Shown here: piece by piece, positions 16,296 to 52,331 of the stretch
Layout of the letters: the number at the start of each line of letters is the position of its first letter
Position numbering within the stretch: the stretch's first letter is position 1
Origin: Sphingomonadales bacterium
Lineage (GTDB): Bacteria > Pseudomonadota > Alphaproteobacteria > Sphingomonadales > Sphingomonadaceae
DNA: 64,000 nucleotides
Reading direction: 5' to 3'
NCBI GenBank assembly: GCA_006226685.1
Contig: SBGG01000025.1
Location: 1-64,000 of the forward strand
Made by a program: the position numbers and the translations under genes
The notes under the pieces: model-generated
The model's database searches: none
Told to the model about the DNA's origin: nothing
Seen by the model: only the letters and a program-made list of their open reading frames with translations

Positions 16296-17078
16296 TCAGA
16301 ATCCGTCTTTCATCAGGCGCAGGGAAGCGAAACATTCGGCCTCCACCCCTTTATTCTCCCGTTGCGCTGCCAGAGGCAGGGAGAGGAACGGATTGGTCCG
16401 GCGTTCCAGCCCGATCGTGCTCGGCACGGTCGGCTTTCCGCGACCATGGTGGAGCCGGATGGCCGCCGCCCGTGCCGACACCTCCTGATCGCCGATGCAG
16501 GCGGCAGCGAAGGCGGCGTTGCCGTCCCCATATTCATGGGCGCAATAGATGCGGGTGTCGTCGGGCAGGGCGACCAGCCGTTCCAGCCCTTTCCATGCCG
16601 TTTCCGCCGTGCCCTCGAACAATCGGCCGCATCCCATTGTGAACAGCGCATCCCCGGTAAAGACCGCGCCCAACCCCGGTACATAATAGCTCAGATGCCC
16701 GGCAGTATGGCCTGCGGTTTCGATCGCCCGGATCGTCAGGCTGCCCAGCAGGATGACGGCGCCGTCGCGGATGGCGATGTCGGTTGTGGGGATCTTGTCG
16801 CGCTCCGCCGCCGGAGCGATAACGCGGGCGCCGGTTACTTCCTTCAGCCAGGCGTTGCCGCCGCAATGATCTTCATGCCAGTGCGTATTGAGGATATAGG
16901 TGAGGTGCCAGCCGCGCTCCTCCAATATCGCCATCAGCGCCGGGGCATCGGGCGTGTCGATGGCGACGGCGCGGCCCATGAGCGGATCCGCCAGCAGATA
17001 CCCGTAATTATTCTGCCGGCACGGAAACTGGACGATCTCGCCATAGGGCGGCTGATCGGGGCGTGTCCCGGCGCTCAT
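16296..17078 (-). CDS. gloB: hydroxyacylglutathione hydrolase (glyoxalase II)
   Basis: Metallo-beta-lactamase fold with THWHEDHCGGN, ETAGHTAGHLSYY, FTGDALFTMGCGRLFEGT, YCAHEY. Confidence 0.9.
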   Translation of the reverse strand: MSAGTRPDQPPYGEIVQFPCRQNNYGYLLADPLMGRAVAIDTPDAPALMAILEERGWHLTYILNTHWHEDHCGGNAWLKEVTGARVIAPAAERDKIPTTDIAIRDGAVILLGSLTIRAIETAGHTAGHLSYYVPGLGAVFTGDALFTMGCGRLFEGTAETAWKGLERLVALPDDTRIYCAHEYGDGNAAFAAACIGDQEVSARAAAIRLHHGRGKPTVPSTIGLERRTNPFLSLPLAAQRENKGVEAECFASLRLMKDGF

Positions 17079-17443: not shown

Positions 17444-17459
17444 ATCAAATTCCGTGCCA
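17444..17459 (-). promoter_or_regulatory. weak sigma54-like promoter upstream of RHH-gloB
   Basis: Minus strand TGGCAC-GGAAT-TTGAT; departs from consensus at -12 (TTGC expected). Confidence 0.35.
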
Positions 17460-18740: not shown

Positions 18741-20798
18741 TTATGACGTGAAACGACTATTGTTGGAGAAGTTCTGATTTATCTCCATGGCGCTGATTCG
18801 TTTCATGCCATATTGGTTCATCTTCCGATAAAGGGTGCTGCGCGATACCCCCAGCATGGCCGCCGTAACGGACAGGTTCCCGCCGGCCATCCGCATCGCC
18901 CGGTCGATCGCTTTCTGTTCGCCGTCACCTATGGCCGAAAGGCTTTCCTTCTCTTCGACAGCATAGGTTCCGGTGGTGGCGAAGCCCTTTTGTTGTGTGA
19001 TTTCATAGGGAAGCACATCGATATCGGCAATGTCGTCCTGGGCGAAGAGGATGCTGCGTTCGACCACGTTGCGCAATTCCCGAACATTGCCGGGCCATTG
19101 ATAGTCTTCCAGCTTTGCCAGCGCCCGTGGGGTGAATCGCGTGGGCTGGCGGTCGTGGCGATCGGCGATGCGCGGATTGAAATAATCGATCAGGCGAGCG
19201 ATGTCGCCCCGCCTTTGCCGCAACGGCGGCACCTCGACCGCCGTTACGCTGAGGCGGTGATAGAGATCGAGCCGGAACCGTCCCGCCGCCACCTCCTCGC
19301 GCAGATTGCGGTTGGTCATCGCGATGATGCGGACATTGACCCGGCGCGGTGTGCTGTCGCCGACGCGATAGACGACGCCTTCCTCCAGCACGCGCAGCAG
19401 ATAGGGCTGCAACTCAAGGCTGAGTTCGCCGATTTCATCGAGGCAGAGCGTGCCTCCATCCGCCTGTTCGAAGCGGCCGATCCGTCCTTCATTGCTGGCG
19501 CCGGTAAAGGCGCCCCTCACATATCCGAACAACTCACTCGCGATCAGGTCCTTCGATACCGCGCCGCAGTTGAAGGCCACGAAGGGGCCTTTCGACAATG
19601 TGCTTTCGCCATGAATGGCGCGGGCGAACAATTCCTTGCCGACCCCGGATTCCCCTTCGATCAGGACCGGTACGTTGAGTGACGAAACGCGGCGGGCGAG
19701 GGCGATGGCATGGCGGATGCATTCGCTTTCCCCGACGATGCAGTCAAATTGCGACCGTGCCGGATCGGCCTCGTCCTTCGCTGCGGGCCGGGCGACCGGC
19801 GCCGGCCGTGACGAACGCGGCTGACGCGACGGAATGACGAGCAGATGTCCGCCCAGTTCCCCATCCGACATCAACGGCCGGAGCCAGTCGCGCGGCAATC
19901 CGGGAACGATATGGTCCACCGGCCTGCCGTCATCATCCAGCAGCCGCACCCCGCGTTTGAGTTCGGGGAGTCTGGTCGAAAGATGCTCGCTCAACATTCG
20001 CTGGGCCAGTCTGCTCGTATAGACGATCCGTCCCGAGGCATCGACCGCGATCAGGTCGTCGCCGGAATGGCGCTGGCTGTGCTCCAGCCCCATTTCCATC
20101 AGGCGCAGATGCTGGACCTCGACCTGCCGTGCGAGCCGTTGTTCGATTTGGCTGGCGGCGAGGACGGCCAGCGCCAGGATGCGGGCGCTCGACTGTCCCT
20201 TCTTGGCCGAGATGTCGAGCACGCCGACAATGCCGCCGTCGAGAGGATCGTGGATCGGCGCGCCGGCGCAGCTCCAGTTTTTTATTCCTTCGCAATAATG
20301 TTCCCCGGCATGGACCATTACCGGGCGCCCGACCGCCAGCGCGGTGCCGATACCGTTGGTCCCGGCATCTTCCTCCGTCCAGCAGCCGCCCTGCATCAGC
20401 GCGATATCCATCCCCGCATTGACCGTATGACGATCGCCCAGCGTTTCGAGTACCACGCCATGAGGGTCGGTGATCAGCATGAGCGAATTGGTGCCGGCCA
20501 GCACATCGGCAGCCTCGACCAGTGTTGGCGCTGCGGCCTGCAGCAATTGCCGGTTGCGACGGCGTAATTGCCCCTGCAGATCATTGCCCAGTTGCGGAGC
20601 ATATTCGACACTGAGATCGACTTTCGACTGACGGCATCGCCGCCAGGAATCGAACACCACGTCGCGCACCTGTCTGGGTTCGCTGAGGGATCCTGAAACG
20701 AAATCTTCCCATGCGCGGGCGACCGCATGGTCGCGTTCTTCCAGCACCGCCAGAGAGCTTTTTACGACGAGATCATATCCCGTGCCTGCCATCGACAT
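18741..20798 (-). CDS. sigma54-dependent activator (AcoR/MimR-like: GAF, AAA+, Fis-type HTH)
   Basis: [21 protein letters not shown] motif, C-terminal [17 protein letters not shown]. Confidence 0.92.
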
Positions 20799-23979: not shown

Positions 23980-25617
23980 TCAGGTCCGACCGTAGACCTC
24001 CGCGCCGCCACCGCGAGCAGGCCCGGCGGTCGGATCGAAATCCTCAGGAAGATCGACCACGAGGGAATGAGTGGTCAGGATCAGCTTCGCCACCGAGACT
24101 GCGTTGGCAAGGGCCGCGCAGGTAACGCGGACCGGGTCGATGACCCCGGCCGCGAACATGTCGCCGAACGTTCCGTTGCGCGCATCGAAGCCGATGGCAG
24201 GTTCGGCCGCCGCAACCTGACTCACCACCGAATCGGCATCTTGTCCCGCATTTCCGGCGATGATCGCCAGCGGTTGCTTCACGGATTTCTGGACCAGTTC
24301 GATGCCGGTTCGCATGCCGCCTTCATATTCGGCGGCAAGCGGGGCCAGGCGACTGGACAACTGGGTCAGGGCGGTGCCGCCGCCGGGAACAATGCCCTCG
24401 TCCCGCGCCGCGCGGGTGGCGTTGAGCCCGTCTTCGAGCAACTGGGCGGTGCGCTTCTGCTCGACCGGCGTGGCGCCGCCTGCCAGCAACAGCGCGGTGC
24501 CGCGGGTCAGCTTGGCGAGGCGCTCGGCATATTTGTCGCGCTCGATATTCTGTGGAGCTTCGTCCCACAATTTCTGCACGAGCCTGCGGCGTCCGGCAAT
24601 GGCGGTTTCATCTCCCATCGGCCCCTGAATGACGGTTGCCGATGCCGAAATGCGGGCGTAGACGGCGGCACCCAGATCGTCGAGCGTGGCCTCCTCGATC
24701 CGGCCGCCCAGATCGCGCGCGATCACGCGGGCACCGGTCATGATGCCCAGATCCTCCATCATTGCCTTGCGCCAATGCCCGAATTCGGGGGGATTGATCG
24801 CGACAATGGTGCCGCGTCCCTGCGCCCGCGCCTGCATCATCGCGGCAACCGCCTCCGGGGCGATCTCGTCGGCGACGAGCAGCAACGGACGCCCGCTGGA
24901 TTTCAACTGGTCGAGCAGCGCCAGCACCGCATCGGCGGAGGGGATTTTGTGATCGGTCAGCAGGATTGCCGGTTCGCTCAGTTCGGCGGCAAGGCTCGAC
25001 GCGTCGGTTGCCATATGATGCGAAACGAAGCCGCGATCGAGCACCACGCCTTCATCGACCTCCAGCCGGGTGGGGGTGCCGGGCAGCGCATATTCGACAT
25101 TGATGACGCCTTCCGGCCCCACCCGCTCTACCGCTTCGGCGATCAGTTCGCCGAGCGCTTCATCGGTCGCCGCGACATTGGCGACCATCCGCAACTCGCC
25201 CTGCCGGGCCGGGCGCGCCATCGTCCGCAGCGCCTGGGTCAGTTCCTGACAGGCCCGATCCATGCCTGCGATCACGTCGACCGCCTTGTGCTCGCTCGCG
25301 ACCAGCGGAACGCCGCCCTGCACCAGTGCGTTGGCGAGAGCCGTTGCGGTCGTCGTGCCGTCGCCTGCGATTTCGTTGGTCTGCATCGATACTTCGCGCA
25401 CCACCTGCGCGCCCAGATTTTCGAAACGGCAGGGCAGTTCGATCTCGGCGGCGATGCTCACGCCATCGCGCGATACCAGCGGCGTTCCGATGGGGCGGTC
25501 GATAATCGCATTGGTCCCCTTGGGGCCGAGCGTGCCGACAACCGCCCGCGAAAGCTTGTCCACGCCCCGCGCCAGAGCGGCGCGCGCTTCACCGTCATAC
25601 AACATGATCTTGGCCAT
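23980..25617 (-). CDS. mimG: divergent GroEL-like chaperonin (MimG/PrmG type)
   Basis: 60-kDa chaperonin sequence (VVGTLGPKGTNAII, EIAGDGTTTATALANAL, EGIVPGGGTAL) in a monooxygenase operon. Confidence 0.88.
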   Translation of the reverse strand: MAKIMLYDGEARAALARGVDKLSRAVVGTLGPKGTNAIIDRPIGTPLVSRDGVSIAAEIELPCRFENLGAQVVREVSMQTNEIAGDGTTTATALANALVQGGVPLVASEHKAVDVIAGMDRACQELTQALRTMARPARQGELRMVANVAATDEALGELIAEAVERVGPEGVINVEYALPGTPTRLEVDEGVVLDRGFVSHHMATDASSLAAELSEPAILLTDHKIPSADAVLALLDQLKSSGRPLLLVADEIAPEAVAAMMQARAQGRGTIVAINPPEFGHWRKAMMEDLGIMTGARVIARDLGGRIEEATLDDLGAAVYARISASATVIQGPMGDETAIAGRRRLVQKLWDEAPQNIERDKYAERLAKLTRGTALLLAGGATPVEQKRTAQLLEDGLNATRAARDEGIVPGGGTALTQLSSRLAPLAAEYEGGMRTGIELVQKSVKQPLAIIAGNAGQDADSVVSQVAAAEPAIGFDARNGTFGDMFAAGVIDPVRVTCAALANAVSVAKLILTTHSLVVDLPEDFDPTAGPARGGGAEVYGRT

Positions 25618-25735: not shown

Positions 25736-26092
25736 TCATTCATATTCGAGCGCTTCGTCCATATCGCCGAAGAGGACGACGGTGTTTTCGTCGATCATCA
25801 CCATGCGGCCATAATGGGTGGAGGTGGAAATCTCGAACAGGTGCGGGGTCATTTCCCGGCCCAGAACTTCGCTGATTTCCTCCATGTCGAAGACGATCTT
25901 GCCTTCGCCGTCGAGCCGGATCATCGCGGGCAGATAGGTGATCTTGATGCCCGGTTTGCCTTGCATGACCTCGGCGATGCAGCGTGCTTCGACGCTGTCG
26001 TTCATGGTCACGCCGCACTGGTGCGAGATCGTCTGTTCCTGCCTGATCTGGTCAAGCGGCTTAAACAGTTCCTGTTCGGATGTAACTGCCAT
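25736..26092 (-). CDS. mimD: MmoB/DmpM-type coupling (effector) protein
   Basis: ARCIAEVMQGKPGIKITYLPAMIRLDGEGKIVFDMEEISEVLGREMTPHLFEISTSTHYGRM. Confidence 0.9.
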   Translation of the reverse strand: MAVTSEQELFKPLDQIRQEQTISHQCGVTMNDSVEARCIAEVMQGKPGIKITYLPAMIRLDGEGKIVFDMEEISEVLGREMTPHLFEISTSTHYGRMVMIDENTVVLFGDMDEALEYE

Positions 26093-26113: not shown

Positions 26114-27223
26114 TTATTCGGCGGGTTCGGCGGTTTCGAGATCGGGCATCGGCACCTGGGTAGCGAAAACTCCGATTTCCGACACGATCGCCTGCATCCG
26201 GTTGATCGCGGATGCATAGGCATCGGCGAACTGCGCCGCTTTCACGCGCGGCTGCGACCAGATCGGTTGAAGGTCCATCGCGGCCTGGGTCGCGATCGGC
26301 GAATATTTGTCGAACCAGGCGTGCAGCAACTGGCGATTGGCTTCGCCATGATGTGGATCACGCACCAGCATCGCGAAGAGCTCGACGGTATTGGCGAGGT
26401 TGCGCTCATAATCCGCTTCCGCAGCCGAAATGACGGACGGGGTCGAATAATCATTCTGGGCCGCCGCGACCTGCATGACGAATCCGGAACGGAACATTTC
26501 GCCAACCAGCGGTTCGAACAGCACGTTCACGATGAAATATTGCTCAAGGAAGTCATTGGCGCCGCGCGCGGATTCGATGAGTTCGCGGCTCTTCTGCCAG
26601 ATCGGGTTTTCGAGCCAGCTCGCCTTGCCCGCGTCGGCATCGAACCCTTCGATATCGAGGCCGATTTCGCCCAGATACAGCGTCAGGTCCTGCGCCATGC
26701 GCAGCTTGTAGGAGCTGTTGGTCAGGATCGCGTTATTGACCATCTGTGTATAGCCGTAACGCTGCGCCCGCATCAGGGCCGTGCCCGCGCCATATTCGGC
26801 ATGTTTGAACGCGCCGATATGATCCTGAAGCACCTTCACCCAGGCCTTGTCGAAGCGTTTGGGCGCCCCGGCCTTGCGGGCGTTGTCGATGACATTCTTG
26901 ATCATGCCGCAAATGGTCGACTGACGCTGATAATGGGTGCGTTCCCATTCCTGATCGGGCGCACGATAGAGGTGCCAGTCATGGCTTTTAAGCGCGGTCC
27001 AGTCCTTGGAATAGGTGGGCGTACCGTCGCCGAAGCTGATGATCCAGTCCTGCAGCAAATAACGCGCCGGATCGGGCTGAACGTCTACGGTGACGTCCTC
27101 GTAATGGGTCGCCCGGCGGCCCTTGGGTTCATAATAATTATAGGCGCGGCTGTCCCAGCCCGGGAAAACCTTGGCGCCGGCGGCTGCCGACTTTTCTTCC
27201 ACTGCCAGTGCTTGCGTACTCAT
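26114..27223 (-). CDS. mimC: soluble di-iron monooxygenase hydroxylase beta subunit
   Basis: Ferritin-like small hydroxylase subunit, operonic with alpha, reductase and coupling protein. Confidence 0.9.
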   Translation of the reverse strand: MSTQALAVEEKSAAAGAKVFPGWDSRAYNYYEPKGRRATHYEDVTVDVQPDPARYLLQDWIISFGDGTPTYSKDWTALKSHDWHLYRAPDQEWERTHYQRQSTICGMIKNVIDNARKAGAPKRFDKAWVKVLQDHIGAFKHAEYGAGTALMRAQRYGYTQMVNNAILTNSSYKLRMAQDLTLYLGEIGLDIEGFDADAGKASWLENPIWQKSRELIESARGANDFLEQYFIVNVLFEPLVGEMFRSGFVMQVAAAQNDYSTPSVISAAEADYERNLANTVELFAMLVRDPHHGEANRQLLHAWFDKYSPIATQAAMDLQPIWSQPRVKAAQFADAYASAINRMQAIVSEIGVFATQVPMPDLETAEPAE

Positions 27224-27240: not shown

Positions 27241-28299
27241 TTACGAGTTGGTGGCGGGTGTAAATTTATCGAAATACATACGGGTGGAATCGATGCCCGC
27301 GATCTGCATGATCGGGGTGGCGCTATCGATCATCGGCGGCGGGCCGCAGCTATAGGCGTCCGCTTCCTCGATATCGTCCATCTGCAGAATATGGTTGCGA
27401 AGCACCTCATGGATGAAGCCGGTTTCGCCGGTCCATTCCTCGCCTTCTTCCGGGTGAGATAATGCCGGAATGAACTTGAAATCGGGCATCCGGGCTTCGA
27501 ACTCCCTGAACTTGTCGAGTTCGAACAGATCCTTCGCCGTCCGCGCGCCATAGAAAAAGCGCACCGGCCGGGTTTCGCCGCTTTCGGCCTGATCCTGCAG
27601 GATCGACAGCAGCGGGGCCATGCCCGATCCGCCGCCGACCAGGATCATCGGGCCTTCGCGGTTTTCCCGCCGGAAGCAGGAGCCATAAGGCCCCTTGACC
27701 TTGATCTCATCGCCGATCGACGCCTCGCCGATCGCGGTCGAGAAGGCGCCGCCCGGATATTTCTTGATGATGAATTCCAGCCGGTTCGGCTCGCTGGGCG
27801 GGTTGCCCATCGAATAGGACCGGGTGATGTTCGCGCCGACCAAGGTCAGGTCGGCGAACTGGCCGGCCCAGAATTTCATCGGCTCATCCAGATCGATCGC
27901 GATGCGGATGATGTCGTGGGTCAATGCCTCGACATTGGCCAGCTTGCCGGTGAATTCCCTGACCGCGATCGAACGGGACAGTTCTTCCTCGTCGAAGTTG
28001 AGCAATTCGACCTCGATGTCGCTATACACTACGGTACGGCACAACAGCACCTGTCCGCTTTCCCGTTCCGGGTCGGACAAGGCGAAGGTCGAATATTTCA
28101 GCATTTCGACATCCCCTTCGTTGAGGATGCACTTGCAGGCCGAACATTGCCCTTCCTTGCAGCCATGCGGCAGGGCGACCCCTTGCCGGAAGGCTGCGTC
28201 GAGAACGGTCTCGCCTTCCTCGACCTCCATTTCCACGCCCACAGGTTCGAGGCGCACCTTGTGCACCGCCACCTTGGACTTCACCATTTCCTGTCCCAT
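27241..28299 (-). CDS. mimB: monooxygenase NADH reductase (2Fe-2S ferredoxin plus FAD/NAD domains)
   Basis: CKEGQCSACKCILNEGD...C; RSYSMGNPPSEPN; GPYGSCF; LVGGGSGMAPLLSIL. Confidence 0.92.
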   Translation of the reverse strand: MGQEMVKSKVAVHKVRLEPVGVEMEVEEGETVLDAAFRQGVALPHGCKEGQCSACKCILNEGDVEMLKYSTFALSDPERESGQVLLCRTVVYSDIEVELLNFDEEELSRSIAVREFTGKLANVEALTHDIIRIAIDLDEPMKFWAGQFADLTLVGANITRSYSMGNPPSEPNRLEFIIKKYPGGAFSTAIGEASIGDEIKVKGPYGSCFRRENREGPMILVGGGSGMAPLLSILQDQAESGETRPVRFFYGARTAKDLFELDKFREFEARMPDFKFIPALSHPEEGEEWTGETGFIHEVLRNHILQMDDIEEADAYSCGPPPMIDSATPIMQIAGIDSTRMYFDKFTPATNS

Positions 28300-28333
28300 T
28301 TGGACCTCTCCACTTATGTATCGCTTCGGGTTT

Positions 28334-28367
28334 GGACGGAGGGCGATGTGCAGACCGCCCTCCGTCC
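28334..28367 (-). other. intercistronic hairpin mimA|mimB, perfect 12-bp stem
   Basis: GGACGGAGGGCG-N10-CGCCCTCCGTCC. Confidence 0.55.
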
Positions 28368-28382
28368 TTTCCCGGGGCAGGA

Positions 28383-30047
28383 TCAGATTCGACGGATCTT
28401 GAAGCCGTTGCGATATTCTTCGATGTGCGCGGCGCGCGCTTCGGGCTTCAGGTCGCGAAGCGCCTTGAGCGGGCTGCGGATGGTGTGGCCGCGGACATGA
28501 TCGAGCGTCCACATATCCTTCTCTTCGAAGGACATGTGCGGCTGCGCGATCAGCGTCTTGCCGTCCGGACGGACGAAGCCCATGTCGACGATCGCGTCGG
28601 CGACATCCCAGCCGTCATAGACTTCTTCCCACTGGCGGCGGCCGGAGAAGCGGCCCATCGCCGGGGTCGGGCGACCCTGATATTCACCGGCAAAGGCTTC
28701 CTTGTGGGTCCAGCGATCGACTTCGCTGGCATAGGTGAACAGTTCGCCGTCCACTTCGTCCACGCAGAAATCTTCGCGGATGACGCAGGGGACGAGGCTC
28801 GACCAGCAGCGATGCGGGTAGACATATCCCGTGTCGGCGAAGGTGATGATCTCGCTGCCCGGCTTGGACAGTTTCTCGTAATTTTCCCACCAGGCGCCGA
28901 ATTCGTCGTACCAGCCCGGATATTTATGTTCGAACCATTCGAAGTCGCGCTCGGTCTGCGCCTCGATACGCCAGAAATTCGCCCACCAGCCGGCAGAGAA
29001 GAACTGCGCCACCTTGTGCACATAGCCCTTCTTCACAATGGAATCGAAGGCCTCGTGCACGTCGTCATGATGGATTTTGATGCCGTATTTTTCGAGTGGC
29101 AGCATGTAGGTGCGATAATAATCCTCGAAAATCCAGCGGTGCCACAGCTCCGCATAGCTTTCCTTGTTCTTGTCGCGGTTCTTGGTGCCATATTCGATGA
29201 TGGTGCCGATGGCGGCATCGACGATCATGTGGTTCTGCCAGAAGGAGTAGCGAATATCGCGCTCCAGCAGCATATGGTTGTCCGGTTCCTTCAGAATGGA
29301 CATCAGCATCGAGTGGCCGTTGCCGATATGACGGCTTTCGTCCGACTGAACCGAGAGGAACACGGTCGGCAGCGCATAGTCGCCGTTACGCGCGGCCTCC
29401 GACGGCATGGCGACGAACAGCGTGTTGGTGAAGGCGGTTTCTGCCGCAACCTGAAGATAGATGTTCGAAGCGGTAATCGCGTCGCCGGTCAGGAAGGCTT
29501 CGCCGAACTGACGGCCGATGGTGGTCGCATAGCATTTGCCGAACGCCTTCTCGGTGATGTCGAAGCCCGCCGGGTCGATATAATTTTCCATGTACCACTT
29601 TTTCAGGTTCATCTGAATCGTGGAGTGGCGGAATTCGTCAACCATCTGCATGGTGAAACCGGTGCGCAGATGGTCGCCCGGTGCAAGCTGGCCCAGCGTG
29701 GCCATCGATCGCGCGGCGGAAATTTCGGGGAAGGGGATGATCGCCAGGAACAGCTTCATCCATTCGATCCAGCGCGGTTCGACATTGCGGAACATATCGC
29801 CGCGCAGCGCCGCGTCGAGTGCGCCATAAACGCGGTTGTCCTTTTCCTCCTGCATCGGGAAGTAGGAGCGCAGTACCTGCTTCATCGGGTCGCGCGGGGG
29901 CTTGCTGATCTTGTAATCGGTCGGAAAGTGCATCGCGTCCTGAACATAGGACGGTGTCCAGCCCAGATCGGCGATCAGCCTGGTGGCTTCGCTGATGCTG
30001 ATGCCTTTCTGGCTGGTAATCTTGTTGAGTGTTAGCGCCTCGGTCAT
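28383..30047 (-). CDS. mimA: soluble di-iron monooxygenase hydroxylase alpha subunit (MimA/PrmA-like)
   Basis: Di-iron signatures DEFRHSTIQMNLKKWYMENYIDPAGFD and SDESRHIGNGHSM. Confidence 0.93.
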   Translation of the reverse strand: MTEALTLNKITSQKGISISEATRLIADLGWTPSYVQDAMHFPTDYKISKPPRDPMKQVLRSYFPMQEEKDNRVYGALDAALRGDMFRNVEPRWIEWMKLFLAIIPFPEISAARSMATLGQLAPGDHLRTGFTMQMVDEFRHSTIQMNLKKWYMENYIDPAGFDITEKAFGKCYATTIGRQFGEAFLTGDAITASNIYLQVAAETAFTNTLFVAMPSEAARNGDYALPTVFLSVQSDESRHIGNGHSMLMSILKEPDNHMLLERDIRYSFWQNHMIVDAAIGTIIEYGTKNRDKNKESYAELWHRWIFEDYYRTYMLPLEKYGIKIHHDDVHEAFDSIVKKGYVHKVAQFFSAGWWANFWRIEAQTERDFEWFEHKYPGWYDEFGAWWENYEKLSKPGSEIITFADTGYVYPHRCWSSLVPCVIREDFCVDEVDGELFTYASEVDRWTHKEAFAGEYQGRPTPAMGRFSGRRQWEEVYDGWDVADAIVDMGFVRPDGKTLIAQPHMSFEEKDMWTLDHVRGHTIRSPLKALRDLKPEARAAHIEEYRNGFKIRRI

Positions 30048-30150
30048 CTCTTATCTCCCTATAGCCCGGTTGGCGGCCGGGCTTTTTGCAAATGGGTGCA
30101 GCATGATCGGCCTGACCGTCTCCGAAGAGGGAGGAGGGCCGCTATGTCTG

Positions 30151-30180
30151 CTGACGAAGCCGGACCGCCGGGTTCGTCAG
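30151..30180 (-). other. stem-loop at the predicted 5' end of the mim transcript
   Basis: CTGACGAA...TTCGTCAG, immediately downstream of the sigma54 -12 element. Confidence 0.4.
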
Positions 30181-30189
30181 TGAATACAC

Positions 30190-30205
30190 AGCAATCAGCG
30201 TGCCA
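30190..30205 (-). promoter_or_regulatory. sigma54 -24/-12 promoter of the mim operon
   Basis: Minus strand TGGCAC-GCTGA-TTGCT, perfect consensus. Confidence 0.82.
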
Positions 30206-30268
30206 GTTTTCGGGAAGGGGCCGTTTGGAGCCGTTTCGGGCCTGGGCGTCGTAGCGGCCTGCTACGCT

Positions 30269-30336
30269 TTGTCCGGGACAATACACAACAGTGTCACGTC
30301 ATATTGAGACGATGGGACAAATTGGGACAGTGTCGC
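30269..30336. promoter_or_regulatory. shared upstream activating region between divergent sigma54 promoters
   Basis: Palindrome TTGTCCGGGACAA (30269-30281) and tandem GGGACAA...ACAGTGTC(A/G)C copies at 30275-30297 and 30314-30336. Confidence 0.6.
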
Positions 30337-30405
30337 TTGTCGTGCCGGCTGCTCTTGCTGGAAGGCGGTCCCGTTATCCGCGGCTTTCGCTGCATTTTTC
30401 CATTT

Positions 30406-30421
30406 TGGCATGGCGCTTGCT
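30406..30421 (+). promoter_or_regulatory. sigma54 -24/-12 promoter of the cytochrome/glyoxalase/GMC operon
   Basis: TGGCAT-GGCGC-TTGCT. Confidence 0.75.
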
Positions 30422-30483
30422 GGTCTTGTGACAATCGAACGGGGTGAATTGCGCCCGTCGAACCGCAAGAGAGGATAGAGACA

Positions 30484-30942
30484 ATGGCAACCGCCAGACA
30501 ATATCGCTACCGCTGGAAGTCGCTGCGCTTCGGTGTGATGATGATCGCACTGATTACGGTGACGGTCGTCAAAATGGCGCGGGGGGATGCCCAGACACCG
30601 GTTCCGGCCACCACCGCAGCCACCGCCGCGACAACCGCCAATGCCAAATTATTCCTGCAACAATGCGGGGCTTGCCATTCCACCAAGGCGGGGGAGGTGC
30701 GTGTCGGCCCTTCGCTGGCCGGTATCATGGGCAAGGTCGCGGGCAAGCAGCCCGGCTTCACCTATTCCGATGCGCTCAAGCGCAGCTCGATGAAGTGGAA
30801 TGCGGCCACGCTGGATCGCTGGCTGGCAGACAGCTCGGCGGCCGTGAAGGGCAGCATCATGAACTATCGTCAGGCCGATGCCGCCAAGCGCAAGGCGATC
30901 ATCGCCTACATGGCCAGCACGAGCGGTAAATCAGGCAAATAA
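30484..30942 (+). CDS. membrane-anchored/secreted c-type cytochrome
   Basis: N-terminal hydrophobic segment and CGACH haem motif. Confidence 0.88.
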   Translation: MATARQYRYRWKSLRFGVMMIALITVTVVKMARGDAQTPVPATTAATAATTANAKLFLQQCGACHSTKAGEVRVGPSLAGIMGKVAGKQPGFTYSDALKRSSMKWNAATLDRWLADSSAAVKGSIMNYRQADAAKRKAIIAYMASTSGKSGK

Positions 30943-30961: not shown

Positions 30962-31357
30962 ATGGCCAAGATCATTCATGCGATGATTCGCGTACTCGAC
31001 GAACAGCGGTCGCTCGATTTCTATCGCACGGCGCTGGGTCTGGAGATTGCGGATCGCTTCCCGTTCGACGGGTTCACGCTCCTCTATCTGCGTAACCCGG
31101 AAAATGATGTCGAGATTGAGCTGACGGTCAATCACGACCGCACCGAACCCTATACCCATGGCGATGGCTATGGCCATGTCGCGGTTGCGGTAGCGGATCT
31201 CGACGCCGAGCATGCCCGGATGGAAGCGGCCGGGCTGGCCCCGCAGCCAATCAAGGAATTTTTCCGCGAAGGCGCGCTGATGGCGCGCTTCTTCTTCGTC
31301 ACCGATCCGGACGGATACAAGATCGAGGTGCTGCAGCGCCACGGCCGGTATCGCTGA
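30962..31357 (+). CDS. gloA: lactoylglutathione lyase (glyoxalase I)
   Basis: MAKIIHAMIRVLDEQRSLDFYRTALGL..., metal-ligand positions H/E/H/E apparent (IHAMIRV, VEIELT, GYGHVAVAV, DPDGYKIEVLQ). Confidence 0.88.
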   Translation: MAKIIHAMIRVLDEQRSLDFYRTALGLEIADRFPFDGFTLLYLRNPENDVEIELTVNHDRTEPYTHGDGYGHVAVAVADLDAEHARMEAAGLAPQPIKEFFREGALMARFFFVTDPDGYKIEVLQRHGRYR

Positions 31358-31986: not shown

Positions 31987-33558
31987 ATGGCTACGAAATT
32001 CGCGCTGAGCGACGACAGTGTCGTTGTCGTCATCGGGTCGGGCGCAGGCGGCGGCACTTTGTCGAACGAACTGGCGCAAAAGGGGATCAAGGTGGTGTGC
32101 CTCGAAGCGGGCGCACGGTATGAGATACCCGATTTCATCAACAATGAATGGGAAAGCTTCGACCAGCTTGCCTGGAAGGACAAGCGTACCACCTCCGGCA
32201 ACTGGCAGGTGGCGAAGGACTTTCCGAACCTGCCCGCATGGATTGTGAAGGCGGTGGGCGGCACCACCACTCACTGGGCAGGCGCGTCGCTGCGGTTTCA
32301 GGAGCATGAATGGAAGGCGCGCAGCACTTATGGCGACATTGCCGGCGCGACTTTGCTCGACTGGCCGATCGATGCCGCCGAAATGGCGCCCTGGTACGCC
32401 CGGGCGGAAAACAAGATGGGAACGACCGGCACCAACGGCATTCCCCGTCTGCCCGGCAACAATAATTATAAGGTGCTGGCGGCGGGCGCCAAGGCGCTGG
32501 GGTATAAGGAGTTCCATACCGGCAACATGTCGATCAACAGCCAGCCGCGCGACGGGCGCGGAAGCTGTCAGCAGATCGGTTTCTGTTTTCAGGGATGCAA
32601 GTCGGGCGCGAAATGGTCGACCCTCTATACCGAAATTCCGAAGGGCGAGGCGACCGGCAATCTGGAGGTGCGCCCGCAATCGCAGGTCATCCGTATCGAG
32701 CATAATGCGGCCGGCAAGGTGTCGGGCGTCGTCTATGCCGACAGCAAGGGCGTGATGCACCGGCAGAAAGCGCGGATGGTGGCGGTCGCGGGCAATTCGA
32801 TCGAAAGCCCCCGGTTGCTGCTCAATTCCGAAAGCACCATGTTCAAGGACGGTCTCGCCAACGGAGCAGGCCATGTCGGCCGCCATTATATGCGGCACAC
32901 GACTGGTTCCGTCTATGCGCAGTTCGACAAGCCCGTGCACATGTATCGCGGCACCACCATGGCCGGCATCGTCCGGGATGAAGCCGTGAACGATACCAGC
33001 CGCGGCTTCGTCGGCGGGTATGAGATGGAAACCATCTCTCTGGGCGTGCCTTTCTCGGCGGCATTCCTCCTGCCGGGCGCATGGGGACGGGATTTCAGTT
33101 CCATGCTCGATGGCTATGATCGTCTGGCCGGCATGTGGCTTGTGGGGGAAGATCTGCCGCAGGCCGACAACCGCGTCACGCTCAACAGCGATGTGAAGGA
33201 CGCGTTCGGCATGCCGGTCGCCAATGTCCATTATGATGACCATCCCAATGACGTGGCGATGCGCGATCACGCCTTTGCGCGGGGTGTGGCGATTTACGAG
33301 GCGGTCGGCGCGAAGCGCACGGTCAAGACGCCGCCCTATCCCTCGACCCATAATATGGGCACCAACCGGATGAGCGCGAAGGCGGAAGACGGCGTCGTCA
33401 ACAAATATGGGCAGACGCACGAAATCAAGAATCTGTTCGTTTCCGACGGCAGCCAGTTCACGACCAGCGCGGCGGAGAATCCGACGCTGACCATCGTGGC
33501 GCTCGCCATTCGTCAGGCCGACCATATCGCCGGTCTGATGGCCAGGGGCGAGATCTGA
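31987..33558 (+). CDS. GMC-family FAD-dependent alcohol dehydrogenase (large subunit)
   Basis: [31 protein letters not shown]-terminal [29 protein letters not shown]. Confidence 0.9.
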
Positions 33559-33623: not shown

Positions 33624-34985
33624 ATGGAGAGTGTTGCTGTAGCAGGCAGTGCAACCCAGTCCGGCGATGGAGCGGACCGCGGTTGGCGGCAAAGCCGTGG
33701 CCTTCCCCCACTGGGCGAGATTTTCCGCACCATACCGGTAACCGGGCGGGGAGGACGACGTTTCCTGTCCTTTCTGGGGCCGGGGTATCTGGTCGCGGTC
33801 GGATATATGGATCCGGGCAACTGGGCGACGGATCTCTATGGCGGTTCGGCCTTCGGCTATACGCTACTGTCGGTCATCCTGTTGTCCAACATCATGGCGA
33901 TGCTGTTGCAGCATCTGGCCGTCCGGCTGGGGATTGCGACGGGGCGCGATCTGGCGCAGGCGTGCCGGGACCATTACAGCAAGCCGACCGCCATGGTTCT
34001 GTGGTTGTTGTGCGAGGTCGCCATCTGCGCCTGCGATCTGGCGGAGCTGATCGGTACCGCGATCGCGCTGCAATTGCTGTTCGGCATCCCGCTGGCCTGG
34101 GGCGTGGCGCTGACCGGGTTCGACGTGCTGTTGCTCCTGATGCTGCAGAAAAAGGGCGTCAGGATGCTGGAGGCACTGGTCATCACCCTGCTGGCCAGCA
34201 TCGCCATCTGTTTCGCCATAGAAATCGCTCTGGTCCGGCCCGATTGGAGCGGTGTGGCGGCGGGGTTCGTGCCCCGGGCGGAAATATGGACCAACCCGCT
34301 GATGCTCTATGTCGCCATCGGCATGATCGGGGCGACGGTCATGCCGCATAATCTCTACCTGCATTCGGCGATCGTGCAGAGCCGTTCCTATCAGCAGACC
34401 TTGCCGGGCAAACGGGAGGCCCTGCGGTTCGCAACGGTGGATTCGACCGTCGCGCTGGCGCTGGCGCTGCTCATCAACGCGTCGATCCTGATTTTGGCGG
34501 CAGGGGCCTTCCACGGCAGCGGGAAGGTGGTGATCGAGATCAACGAAGCCTATTGGCTGCTGGCGCCGACGCTCGGAACATCGATCGCCTCGACCGCCTT
34601 TGCGGTTGCGTTGCTTGCATCGGGGCAGAATTCCACGATCACGGCAACGCTGGCCGGGCAGATTGTGATGGAAGGCTTTACCACATGGCGTCTGACCCCG
34701 GCCGTGCGGCGCATGCTGACGCGGGGGCTGGCGCTGGCGCCCGCGCTGTTCGTGACGATTGCCTATGGCGAAAAGGCGACGGCGCAACTACTGGTGCTCA
34801 GTCAGGTGATCCTGTCGGCGCAACTGCCCTTTGCGATCATCCCGCTGGTGAAGTTTACCAGCGACCGGATGAAAATGGGCGAGATGGTGGCCCCGCGCTG
34901 GTTGTCGCTCAGTGCCTGGGGCATCGGGATCGTCATCATCGTCCTGAACCTCAAGCTGGTATGGGATGTCGTGGTGAATGGCTGA
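33624..34985 (+). CDS. Nramp-family divalent metal (Mn/Fe) transporter
   Basis: [11 protein letters not shown] motif, [15 protein letters not shown]. Confidence 0.9.
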
Positions 34986-36874: not shown

Positions 36875-37405
36875 ATGACCCTTACCAACACCGCGTGCCC
36901 CGATGGTGGCCCGGTGGCATTTCGCTCCCCTCATGCCGAGGACGGTCCCGCCGTCACCGCGCTTATCGCTGAATGTCCGCCGCTCGATTCCAATTCGGCC
37001 TATTGCAATCTGCTGCAATGCACGCATTTCGCCGACAGCTGCATCCTTGCCGAGCGGCAGGGCAAGCTCATCGGCTGGATTTCGGGCTATCGCCTGCCGG
37101 CCGATCCGACCCGCTATTTTCTGTGGCAGGTTGCCGTTGCTGCGGAAGGACGCGGCTCCGGCCTTGCGACGCGGATGCTGGATGCGCTTCTGGCACGTCC
37201 CTCGCTGCACGGCGTGACGCATCTCATTACGACGATAACCCGCGATAATGCGGCGTCATGGCGGCTTTTCAGAGCCTTTGCCGAACGGAGGGGCACGGCC
37301 CTTCGGGAAAGTCTGTGCTTTGACCATGATCGTCATTTCGCGGGACGCCATGCGAGCGAATGGCAGGTGGAAATCGGGCCGCTTTCGGACGGTGCGCTGT
37401 CGTAG
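36875..37405 (+). CDS. ectA: L-2,4-diaminobutyrate acetyltransferase
   Basis: GNAT fold, LDSNSAYCNLLQCTHFADSCILAE, upstream of ectB. Confidence 0.93.
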   Translation: MTLTNTACPDGGPVAFRSPHAEDGPAVTALIAECPPLDSNSAYCNLLQCTHFADSCILAERQGKLIGWISGYRLPADPTRYFLWQVAVAAEGRGSGLATRMLDALLARPSLHGVTHLITTITRDNAASWRLFRAFAERRGTALRESLCFDHDRHFAGRHASEWQVEIGPLSDGALS

Positions 37406-44292: not shown

Positions 44293-44475
44293 TTAGTCGT
44301 CGATGGCGGTGGCCTGACCGTAGTCGCGCACCGACTCCCGGTTATACATGACGGTGTGGCACCTCTGACAGTGAACCGTCGATCTGTCCCTGACCGGCAG
44401 GCGCGACCACTTCACCCTATGACGCTGCCCGCACTTGGGACAGGTCATCTCGTGTACGCCTTCCTCAAACGCCAT
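44293..44475 (-). CDS. small zinc-ribbon protein
   Basis: CPKCGQRH...HCQRCH two CxxC pairs; overlaps the integrase stop. Confidence 0.6.
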   Translation of the reverse strand: MAFEEGVHEMTCPKCGQRHRVKWSRLPVRDRSTVHCQRCHTVMYNRESVRDYGQATAIDD

Positions 44476-45640
44476 TGCCCGCGCCTCCCCAATCGACGTT
44501 CAGGTTGGCGGCGCTTTTCTCAACTGCTTTAAGTAATGTATCATTCGCAAGATGAGAATACCGCTGAGACGACTTATAATCCTTGTGGCCGACGAGCTTA
44601 CCTACGGTATATAGATCAACACCGGCCGAAACAGCAGAAGAACAGAACGAGTGCCTTAGATCATGTATTCTTAGATCGGGCATTCCTGCTGCTTTTCGTG
44701 CCGTATCCCAAGCGCGCTTTATGGTGTTGTAGGGCTTCTTCGTCTTGGGATTGGGTATCAGCCATTCGCATTTCTCCCAACGAGGCAGCTTGTCGATGAC
44801 CGTCATCGCCTGGCTCGATAGCGGTACATAGCGGGGCTCCCCGTTCTTCGTCTCGGGGATCAGCCACATGCCGCGTTCGAGATCGATATCCGCCCATTTC
44901 GCCTTGAGTAGTTCCATCTTTCTCGCTCCGGTAAGCAGCAGGAGGGCGACGATGCTGGCAAGCTGGGTGTTGTCGGATTGTGCTGCCTTTTCATGCAGAC
45001 GAGCCGCTTCCTTGGGGGTGAGGAACCGTTCACGCGCATTATTGAATTTCTTGCGCGTCACATGCTTGACCGGATTCACCTCGGTACCGGGAACGCCCCA
45101 GCGATTGCCGAGCTCGAACGATCGGTTGAAGGTCATGCGGATGCGTTCGACGGTAGCAGGAGCAAGTCCCCCGGCCATCTTCTCGGCAAGCCATTTCGAG
45201 ATATCCTGGGTCTTGATTTCGTCGAGACGCATCTTGCCCCAGCGCGGCAGGATATGCAGGCGCAGGATCATTTCAGTCGATGCGTGCGACTTGATATAGG
45301 CCTCGGCATGTTCGAGGTGCTGCTTGGCAAGGTCGGAGTAGAGGCCAATGGCTTTCTTCTCCTTCTTCTCCGCCTGCGGGTTGCCGCCCAGGACGACTTC
45401 CGCTCTCAGTTTCGCCGCCGCCTTTCGAGCCTGTTCAACGGTGATATCTCCAAAGCGCCCTATCTTGTATTGGCGTTGGCGGCCGTTTGCATCGGTGAAG
45501 CGCAGGGCGAAGGTGCCGCCATTGGTCCTCTTTTCATATACGAAGCCGGGTATGTGAATGTCCCAGTGGTCGGTCTTGCGTTTTCCGGGCTCGCATTGAG
45601 CCGTCAAACAATATGCATGGTCGAGCTTTGCCTTTGGCAT
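44465..45640 (-). CDS. int: tyrosine recombinase/integrase (P4-like)
   Basis: DUF4102-like N-terminus; catalytic R..HxxR..H..Y pattern: LTGARKMELL, HDLRHSFCS, VGKLVGHKDYKSSQRYSHL. Confidence 0.93.
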   Translation of the reverse strand: MPKAKLDHAYCLTAQCEPGKRKTDHWDIHIPGFVYEKRTNGGTFALRFTDANGRQRQYKIGRFGDITVEQARKAAAKLRAEVVLGGNPQAEKKEKKAIGLYSDLAKQHLEHAEAYIKSHASTEMILRLHILPRWGKMRLDEIKTQDISKWLAEKMAGGLAPATVERIRMTFNRSFELGNRWGVPGTEVNPVKHVTRKKFNNARERFLTPKEAARLHEKAAQSDNTQLASIVALLLLTGARKMELLKAKWADIDLERGMWLIPETKNGEPRYVPLSSQAMTVIDKLPRWEKCEWLIPNPKTKKPYNTIKRAWDTARKAAGMPDLRIHDLRHSFCSSAVSAGVDLYTVGKLVGHKDYKSSQRYSHLANDTLLKAVEKSAANLNVDWGGAGNGV

Positions 45641-45907
45641 GGCTCTTTCTCCTTTCTAAAGTGATGTTGAGTGTGTGCCGCCAGAGCCGGGTTTGGGCAC
45701 GCAAGGGGTGGGTCCGGCCGCTCGCGGTTTGGTGCGAGACGGGGCTCCAGCGGCTAAGTTTGGATGTGTCGGGCGAGGGAGCGGGAGGTGCCCCCAAGCG
45801 CCCAGTTCGCCAGTTTTGAGTTTGCCCGGCTTCCGGCCCGAACGAGTGGTGATGGCCCGGCGCGGGACGAAAACTGGGTGGGAGACAAAAATCCCGAAAA
45901 CTGAAAA

Positions 45908-47935
45908 CTAGCCGTCAGTCAGCAGGCGATAAACCTGTGCATTGTGGGCCTCGCGCGTGAATGACCAACGATGTTGGGTGGGGTCATCGCCGGTATAGCG
46001 TTCGATCACCTTCATCACCGCGTTTCGACTGACATTGGCCTGTTCCGCCGTGGCGTTACGCAGGGCCATTTTTGTGTTCACGCCCTTGGTGATCTGCTCG
46101 GCAATGACGGCGATGATCTCCGCGTCGGACCGCGTCCGTTCAGCGCGTTTGATGCCATCCACTTCCTCGGGATCGACCTTGCGCACCGAGGATAGGCGTT
46201 GGACGTACGAGATTTTCTCCTCCACTGAATAGGCATAGACGACCGACCGAACGCCGCCGCCTCGGGACTTGTCCTGGGTAAACTCGATCAACTTCTCTCC
46301 GGGATTTTCGGTCGAGGGTAGTTCATCGATGATATAGCCCGCATCGAAGTCATCGAGGATATCGCTCGTACCCGTAGGGATGGACTTGCCATTGTCGCCC
46401 TTGCGCTTGTTGACGTGGGCGAGCGCAAGCACTGTACCACCGGCGGAAACGAACTGGCGAACGACATTGGCGAATGCACTGGCCTGCTGCTTGTTCATCA
46501 GATCGGTGAATTTCTTGAGGGTGTCGATCACGATAAAGAGCCCGCGCGCCGTTCCGCCATGGACCGCTTCGAGCATCAATGTTTCCAGTTTACCGATGCT
46601 GAAGCCGCTATGCCCCGGCACCAGCATATGGACCCCGAATTCATCCAGTAGCCCTAACTTTGTGGCAATTCCCGCGCTATTGTCATCGGCATTGATGATA
46701 TTCACCTTGTCTGGATCGATGCGGCCTTCCTCTATTGCCTGAAACAGCAGATGGAGAACGAGCAGCGTCTTTCCGACATTGTATCTGGCGTACCAGACGG
46801 TGGCCTCACCCTTGAGGCAGACATCACCAAGAAGGGGTGTGGTCGCCTGCGCCATGGCCTCATATTTTGCCGCTTGACCCGAGATACTGAATTTTCTGAA
46901 CGGGTCGGCCTTGGCTTTGGGCTCAGGTGCGGGAACGGGAACAAATTCCGTCTCGCAGGGCTGGAATTTTTCCTCCATGATTGATGCGGTATCGGCCCCG
47001 CCATCACGTGCCATGGCAATCAGAGTGCCGACCGTTATCGGCTTGTCGACCGAACCTCGGAAGGATTTCCACTTGGCTTCGACATCGGCGCGGTCCTTGT
47101 AGCTTTTGCCATTTCGGCTCCAGGCTACCGCGAGTTCCAGTCCCTCATCGCTGCCGCCGGTTTCGTGGTAGACCGCCATCAGGACATGCAGCCAGTCCTC
47201 ATAGCCGCAATCGGGATCGATATGCTCCAGCAATTGCGAGAGCTTGGTAATGTCCGTTGTGGTCTCCGAGGGATCGAATTCCACATCATCGGGGACGGGG
47301 CGTGGGACTGGCCTGCCGTTATGTTGAAATATGGCATCGACAAAGTCCTGCCCAACGGCGTTGAGCTCCTCCAAATTCTTGACGTCCAGGCGATAGAGCG
47401 ACTTGTCCTTGCTTGGCACGAGGCAGATCGAGTTTCTCTCCGCCTTGACATCGATACGCTCCGGATGCTTTTCCGTATCGTGAGAGTCAGGCTTGGCAAA
47501 TGTGCCATCTTTCAGCCAATAGTGGTGATGATAGCCACGTCGCGTTTTGACGATGAACGATGCCTTTACGCCGAACCGCTTTTCGATCTCCGCCAGCGCC
47601 CCTTGAGCCTCCGGCGTATCGGTATCGAGCACAAGCTGATTTTCACCAAGTATGGCTCCGACCTCATGCTCGGGATGTGCCTCCCAGTGTTGCCGGATGG
47701 CTTCCTTTGACACGCCGCCCATCCAGGGTTCGTATTTTGCGGCCGGTCGTTTCTGGCCCGGAACCATGGGTAGGACGACAGATCCGAAGTCTTGCCACCA
47801 GAGCGCGCCTTCAAGGTTCGATTTAAACTCAGGCACATTACGCGGCCGGATGTCATCGATATCCAGATCGCGCAGGCTTATTGGCGCTTTGGGTGGTGGT
47901 GCGGGATTTCCACCCGCATTTGTAACATTATGCAT
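45908..47935 (-). CDS. replication protein: Prim-Pol-like N-terminus, PriCT_2-like region, RecA/DnaB-like AAA ATPase
   Basis: FIVKTRRGYHHHYWLKDG, DYEDWLHVLMAVYHETGGSDEGLELAVAWSRNG-like segment, ATVWYARYNVGKTLLVLHL Walker A, GLFIVIDTLKKF Walker B. Confidence 0.8.
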   Translation of the reverse strand: MHNVTNAGGNPAPPPKAPISLRDLDIDDIRPRNVPEFKSNLEGALWWQDFGSVVLPMVPGQKRPAAKYEPWMGGVSKEAIRQHWEAHPEHEVGAILGENQLVLDTDTPEAQGALAEIEKRFGVKASFIVKTRRGYHHHYWLKDGTFAKPDSHDTEKHPERIDVKAERNSICLVPSKDKSLYRLDVKNLEELNAVGQDFVDAIFQHNGRPVPRPVPDDVEFDPSETTTDITKLSQLLEHIDPDCGYEDWLHVLMAVYHETGGSDEGLELAVAWSRNGKSYKDRADVEAKWKSFRGSVDKPITVGTLIAMARDGGADTASIMEEKFQPCETEFVPVPAPEPKAKADPFRKFSISGQAAKYEAMAQATTPLLGDVCLKGEATVWYARYNVGKTLLVLHLLFQAIEEGRIDPDKVNIINADDNSAGIATKLGLLDEFGVHMLVPGHSGFSIGKLETLMLEAVHGGTARGLFIVIDTLKKFTDLMNKQQASAFANVVRQFVSAGGTVLALAHVNKRKGDNGKSIPTGTSDILDDFDAGYIIDELPSTENPGEKLIEFTQDKSRGGGVRSVVYAYSVEEKISYVQRLSSVRKVDPEEVDGIKRAERTRSDAEIIAVIAEQITKGVNTKMALRNATAEQANVSRNAVMKVIERYTGDDPTQHRWSFTREAHNAQVYRLLTDG

Positions 47936-48476
47936 AATTTCCTCTTGCCGATCGTGGGACCGGACTGAATCGGGTGTAAGAAAAATGGGGACGCCGATTC
48001 TCTCAGCGCCCCCACGGATGGTCTGCGATTGCGGCTCAGGATCTGGGCCGCTCATCGCGTGAAGACGGCGACTCAGTTTCCGCCTTCGATAGTTTTTCAA
48101 GATGTTCGATCAGCGCACGCCAACCAGCAGCGATACGCGAACCGAACGAATTTTCGTTCATCATGGTTGCTTTCAATCAAGGCCGGTCGCCTCCAGCATG
48201 TCAAAGAAGTCCTGGTAGCTGGCGAAGCATGGAAGGCGCTGCCAGCCTGAAAGCCGTTACGATGGAAGAGGAATATGGCCTCGACGCAAGTGTGGCGTGT
48301 TCAGGTGAACAGCGCCCCCAATGCACTTGCTGAGGACTACCCGGCGGTGGTCGTAAACGCCGATTGCCGGATGCAGCTTATCTGGGTTTAGGGTCGATGG
48401 CTTTCAAGCTTTGGTAACAGGCTCACCCGAATTTTTTGCCCGTGGGCAACCTAGACGCACCGGAATGGGTGTAACT

Positions 48477-52255: not shown

Positions 52256-52331
52256 TGGTGCCGCAGAAGGGACTCGAACCCCCGACCCCAACATTACGAA
52301 TGTCGTGCTCTACCAGCTGAGCTACTGCGGC
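52256..52331 (-). tRNA. tRNA-Thr (anticodon CGT)
   Basis: Full cloverleaf on minus strand GCCGCAGTAGCTCAGCTGGTAGAGCACGACATTCGTAATGTTGGGGTCGGGGGTTCGAGTCCCTTCTGCGGCACCA; loop TTCGTAA. Confidence 0.96.

Follow-up and report, generated by a model that had tools for sequence, protein, structure and literature searches.

The window, that is, the whole 64-kb stretch of DNA analyzed here, carries two groups of genes that diverge from a gap of 436 bp. Genes on the minus strand follow in the order mimA, mimB, mimC, mimD, a GroEL-like gene, an FAD-oxidase/4Fe-4S gene, a regulator gene, a gene for a MetA-pathway-type protein, and the glyoxalase II gene, and on the plus strand a cytochrome c-glyoxalase-GMC operon begins at the opposite edge of the gap:

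16296-17078, minus strand: glyoxalase II (gloB), above the cut-off of TIGR03413
18741-20798, minus strand: MimR-like GAF-AAA-Fis sigma54 activator, with GAF, sigma54-AAA+, and Fis HTH domains and a GAFTGA loop
21028-23931, minus strand: FAD-oxidase/4Fe-4S protein, a probable D-lactate dehydrogenase (presumed substrate)
23980-25617, minus strand: GroEL-like chaperonin of the mimG type
25736-26092, minus strand: mimD, coupling protein (PF02406; NF045941 below its cut-off)
26114-27223, minus strand: mimC, monooxygenase small subunit
27241-28512, minus strand: mimB, reductase, given as the longest open reading frame, with the true start probably further downstream
28383-30047, minus strand: mimA, monooxygenase large subunit (PF02332), first gene of the minus-strand operon
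30484-30942, plus strand: c-type cytochrome (PF00034), first gene of the plus-strand operon
30962-31357, plus strand: glyoxalase I-like protein (gloA), above the cut-off of PF00903
31415-31954, plus strand: gluconate 2-dehydrogenase subunit 3-like protein (PF13618)
31987-33558, plus strand: GMC oxidoreductase, a probable acetol dehydrogenase (presumed substrate)
33624-34985, plus strand: MntH-type metal transporter, the probable last gene of the operon, which also adjoins the cluster in locus L001

The gene set of both strands fits a route from acetone through acetol, methylglyoxal, lactoylglutathione, and D-lactate to pyruvate, with the exact substrate presumed. Acetone is a substrate of Mim-type enzymes, and an acetol/methylglyoxal route has been proposed for an actinobacterium (PMC7176365); the propane monooxygenase of Methylocella has also been implicated in growth on acetone (PMC7660913). 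MimA shares 96% identity with proteins from Novosphingobium, a Sphingomonas MAG, and Bradyrhizobium (L001-L005), compared with ∼75-91% for the neighboring mim genes, and it was absent from all others among ∼400 genomes of the same order and ∼400 of the same family. This combination of identity and rarity points to horizontal transfer, with MimA under strong constraint. Not far from the mim cluster, a phage-type integrase beside a primase-like protein (44465-48100) marks a mobile element, and a tRNA-Thr gene lies at 52256-52331. Between 36876 and 41550, an acetyltransferase-like frame, a class-III aminotransferase, a small frame, a PhyH-family protein, and a sodium:solute symporter form a probable ectoine/hydroxyectoine cluster.

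The gap between mimA and the cytochrome gene holds two outward-facing, near-perfect sigma54 promoters, which flank a core of 200 bp:

30189-30206, minus strand: sigma54 promoter of the mim operon, CTGGCACGCTGATTGCTG (core TGGCACGCTGATTGCT at 30190-30205), weighted consensus score 15.6 of 15.6, predicted start near 30179
30405-30422, plus strand: sigma54 promoter of the cytochrome c-glyoxalase-GMC operon, TTGGCATGGCGCTTGCTG (core TGGCATGGCGCTTGCT at 30406-30421), weighted consensus score 15.1 of 15.6, predicted start near 30432

Both have GG at -24, GC at -12, and the spacing of TGGCAY-N5-TTGCW. An earlier note on this DNA had placed the two promoters at exactly these core positions, which are the sole matches to the consensus in the window; shuffling the window gave an expectation of 0.17 matches, and two were reached in 1 of 100 shuffles. 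Across the 109 contigs of the genome (3.57 Mb), which also encodes RpoN, the pattern occurs eight times, compared with three for a reversed control pattern. Three of those eight near-perfect sites are packed within 2.7 kb of contig C64 (4009-6694; L098-L100). Two weaker candidates in the window were dismissed, one at 17444 on the minus strand with GA rather than GC at -12, and a near match at 37190 on the plus strand, which falls inside another gene, the acetyltransferase-like frame of the probable ectoine cluster, and is probably meaningless. Ahead of mimR, metA, and gloB in the window, no convincing sigma54 or activator site was found.

The same note had predicted a GAF-AAA-Fis activator with a GAFTGA motif at 18741-20798, and all three domains and an intact loop were indeed found there, which is the combination of AcoR/MimR-type regulators (GAF, a sigma54-interaction AAA+ domain with GAFTGA, and a Fis-type HTH). 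In the window, as in most relatives, the activator gene belongs to the mim cluster; in the three Bradyrhizobium loci (L003-L005), no regulator of the MimR family was found within the 21 kb fetched. The recognition helix, SRSTLYRK, is identical in the regulators of the window, L001, L002, and Azospirillum, which argues that they read the same half-site.

A scan of genome contigs with MimA returned 80 loci. In 11 of them (L001, L002, and L006-L014; Novosphingobium, a Sphingomonas MAG, and nine Azospirillum), the cytochrome-glyoxalase operon diverges from mimA, and both sigma54 promoters are kept in all 11, each scoring at least 14.6. A Pandoraea locus in which no cytochrome gene was found (L034) also has both promoters, the second scoring 14.4. 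More broadly, a sigma54 site with a score of 14.4 or more occurs in the 600 bp upstream of mimA in 47 of the 80 loci, against a background rate of 3.4e-5 per position, or ∼0.02 per 600 bp. The Bradyrhizobium loci combine a near-identical MimA with a sigma54 promoter, and no cytochrome-glyoxalase operon was found in the DNA fetched. The sphingomonad comparison comprises three loci because the order and family genomes above contained no more relatives. A class-wide search added two mim loci, G971, with mim genes and no cytochrome operon within the 19 kb fetched, and G652, which was scanned in a short locus only.

Distances between the two promoters range from 170 to 391 bp among the relatives. 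The symmetry proposed earlier is approximate, and the proposed separation of roughly 100 bp from the repeat region to each promoter holds, in that the center of the region lies ∼100 bp from each -24 element. In one Azospirillum locus (L013), the activator sites are separated from the cytochrome promoter by ∼200 bp of additional sequence, in part an inverted repeat, which amounts to a natural test of the reach of shared sites. In L006-L011, L013, and L014, the stretch from the mim promoter to the first activator site contains a conserved block, TTTTAAAGA.

Activator sites were sought upstream of the mim promoter with an expectation-maximization search that was seeded with the sequences themselves and assumed mirror symmetry but no particular letters. 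This de novo search yielded TGTc.CAt.aTG.gACA, a palindrome present about twice per locus, and hence a family site in the form of a 17-bp inverted repeat, TGTCYCA-N3-TGRGACA, in 49 non-redundant loci from alpha- and betaproteobacteria. Refitting without the window and L001-L005 gave 97 expected sites over the 49 loci. The log-likelihood ratio of the motif fit was 557, compared with at most 266 for shuffled sets, and no sharp motif emerged at widths of 16 and 18. In cross-validation, a motif trained on betaproteobacteria found sites in 28 of 33 loci of the alphaproteobacterial set (0.7 in shuffles), and one trained on the alphaproteobacterial set found them in all 16 betaproteobacterial loci (0.5 in shuffles). 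The copies are typically two, 30-34 bp apart (mostly ∼33 bp), and stand at a similar distance from the promoter across loci. Judged from sequence, TGTCYCA-N3-TGRGACA is the best candidate for the MimR site.

In Azospirillum, one pair of palindromes lies between the two promoters and stands out as conserved blocks. Its distance to the predicted starts is ∼88-122 bp for one promoter and ∼108-142 bp for the other, upstream in both cases, and no further copy was found elsewhere in the scanned loci. In Azospirillum, IHF-like sequences with one mismatch to the consensus overlap the activator site, and no match to that consensus was found in the window region. In two loci where the second operon is not divergent (L046 and L080), that operon is preceded by a separate sigma54 site, and a matching activator site lies further upstream. 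The cytochrome operon of L018/L019 has no preceding sigma54 or activator site, and in L071 and L020 the sites are in the wrong order.

The full 17-bp palindrome is missing from the window, L001, and L002; the best score in the window region is 5.8, whereas in most other loci the best site scores 12-23. A half-site motif trained on other species with the window left out instead picked out a cluster in the core, which sits beside the repeats described earlier:

30269-30281, no strand assigned: palindrome TTGTCCGGGACAA, a possible extra activator contact
30275-30297, plus strand: 23-bp repeat copy 1, GGGACAA-N6-ACAGTGTCAC, 16/23 identical to copy 2
30304-30329, minus strand: three tandem activator half-sites, reading CGTCTCAA, TGTCCCAT, and TGTCCCAA on that strand, the best candidate for a shared activator site
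30314-30336, plus strand: 23-bp repeat copy 2, GGGACAA-N6-ACAGTGTCGC, overlapping the half-site cluster

The half-sites at 30304-30311, 30312-30319, and 30322-30329 score 8.7, 11.6, and 10.9 of a possible 11.6. The cluster is the only one of three half-sites in the 64 kb, and three were reached in 0.1% of shuffles. The layout of the half-sites differs among the sphingomonad loci.

The earlier note had named the palindrome and the two repeats as the binding elements. These are present as described, yet taken alone they are within chance, since a palindrome arm of 6 was reached in 9.6% of shuffles and the best 23-bp direct repeat (16/23) in 8.3%. It is possible, but improbable, that TTGTCCGGGACAA and the two GGGACAA-N6-ACAGTGTC(A/G)C repeats, whose copies are 39 bp apart, are the true operators in place of the tandem TGTCYCA cluster, with the activator contacting everted half-sites. 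Everted half-sites of the TGTC type can be read in both 23-bp copies, and L002-L004 have a comparable everted layout at another spacing, but this variation in spacing between loci counts against such operators, as do the shuffles. Because copy 2 overlaps the half-site cluster, the everted and tandem readings are not exclusive. The elements proposed earlier were only partly right: the family site is TGTCYCA-N3-TGRGACA, of which the window has half-sites only, most of them tandem, and an array of TGTCYCA half-sites should replace the named repeats. The unusual arrangement of half-sites in the sphingomonad branch is the most interesting point of the locus. One doubtful explanation is that, where relatives with an identical recognition helix read the inverted 17-bp site, the activator of this branch binds tandem or everted half-sites; a ring-forming activator would then be loaded on a half-site array serving two opposite-facing promoters.

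On balance, 30189-30422 is probably a divergent sigma54 control region with a shared enhancer, through which MimR would co-induce both operons. Counting against it are the missing full palindrome in the window, L001, and L002, the differing half-site layouts of the sphingomonad loci, the cytochrome operon of L018/L019 with neither kind of site ahead of it, and L003-L005, where the mim promoter is kept and no MimR-family regulator was found in the 21 kb fetched. Activator sites were found between the promoters as full palindromes in Azospirillum and as a half-site cluster in the window. The comparison gives good support to the proposal that a single array governs both halves of the pathway, namely through the promoter pair in 11 of 11 loci and the single Azospirillum site pair between the promoters, although the elements named for it were only partly right. 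Control of both promoters by one activator is read from the position of the sites. Sigma54-RNA polymerase would wait at both outward-facing promoters, which are recognized by sequence and conservation. The MimR-like activator is probably switched on through its GAF domain by acetone or by a related ketone or alcohol, and it would bind the central TGTCYCA half-sites at 30304-30329 and perhaps reach as far as 30269. As expected for this activator family, DNA looping and ATP hydrolysis would then open both promoters, and the two halves of the pathway would be induced together.

Alternatively, both promoters may be real and share no common array, with the central half-sites serving mainly mim and the cytochrome promoter using another enhancer-binding protein or separate sites. 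The genome encodes several further sigma54 activators, and the Pandoraea locus L034 has separate sites nearer each promoter. Separate control is nonetheless unlikely given the single site pair between conserved promoters in Azospirillum and the mim-type site carried by the second operon in L046 and L080. That the sigma54-like matches arose by chance and the operons use other promoters is highly improbable, for although the reversed pattern also yields its three genome-wide matches and the near match at 37190 is a stray one, the two outward-facing matches share one 436-bp gap and are kept in every other divergent locus, and no sigma70-like promoter was found within 30000-30520.

A shared enhancer driven by a MimR-like activator has parallels in several known systems. 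Mycobacterial MimR is the activator of mimABCD, inducing acetone/propane oxidation, and as in the window its gene is linked to mimABCD and a GroEL-like gene. Mycobacteria are not known to have sigma54, and their mim promoter must then work by another mechanism; the portions of the sources available on mycobacterial mim describe no divergent shared region. The formate-responsive activator FhlA of Escherichia coli contains GAF domains. The hycA/hypA intergenic region of E. coli has outward-facing sigma54 promoters for two related operons under FhlA (PMC8743547, PMC4591121), an arrangement that resembles the window in its promoters, its paired operons, and its GAF-containing activator and differs in the signal, the binding site, and the genes. 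Divergent sigma54 promoters of orp1/orp2 in Desulfovibrio vulgaris are co-activated by DVU2106 from between them (PMC3897727). The window likewise has two divergent predicted sigma54 promoters with candidate activator sites between, but the genes are different, the pathway is unrelated, and the IHF required in D. vulgaris (PMC3897727) has no consensus match in the window region. BmoR of Thauera butanivorans, according to the available part of its description, is a sigma54-dependent activator of butane monooxygenase that responds to alcohols, and so resembles the activator here in serving a soluble diiron alkane monooxygenase (PMC8784404). BmoR serves a Group 3 monooxygenase, and that part of the source describes no divergent shared region (PMC8784404).

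The principle of a shared activator is already known from hyc/hyp and orp, and this region is a further case of a known kind; a search of the open-licence literature found no description of a mimA/cytochrome-glyoxalase control region. For proteobacterial clusters of Mim-type acetone/propane monooxygenases, the comparison offers a concrete and testable rule, sigma54 together with the candidate MimR site TGTCYCA-N3-TGRGACA. The promoter pair could also become a compact two-way acetone-responsive switch. Since the two promoters share DNA that an activator probably binds, the two halves of the pathway are probably turned on together by one sensor protein, and toxic methylglyoxal would then not be produced without the glyoxalase that removes it. 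The region thus suggests one control element that ties production of methylglyoxal to its removal.
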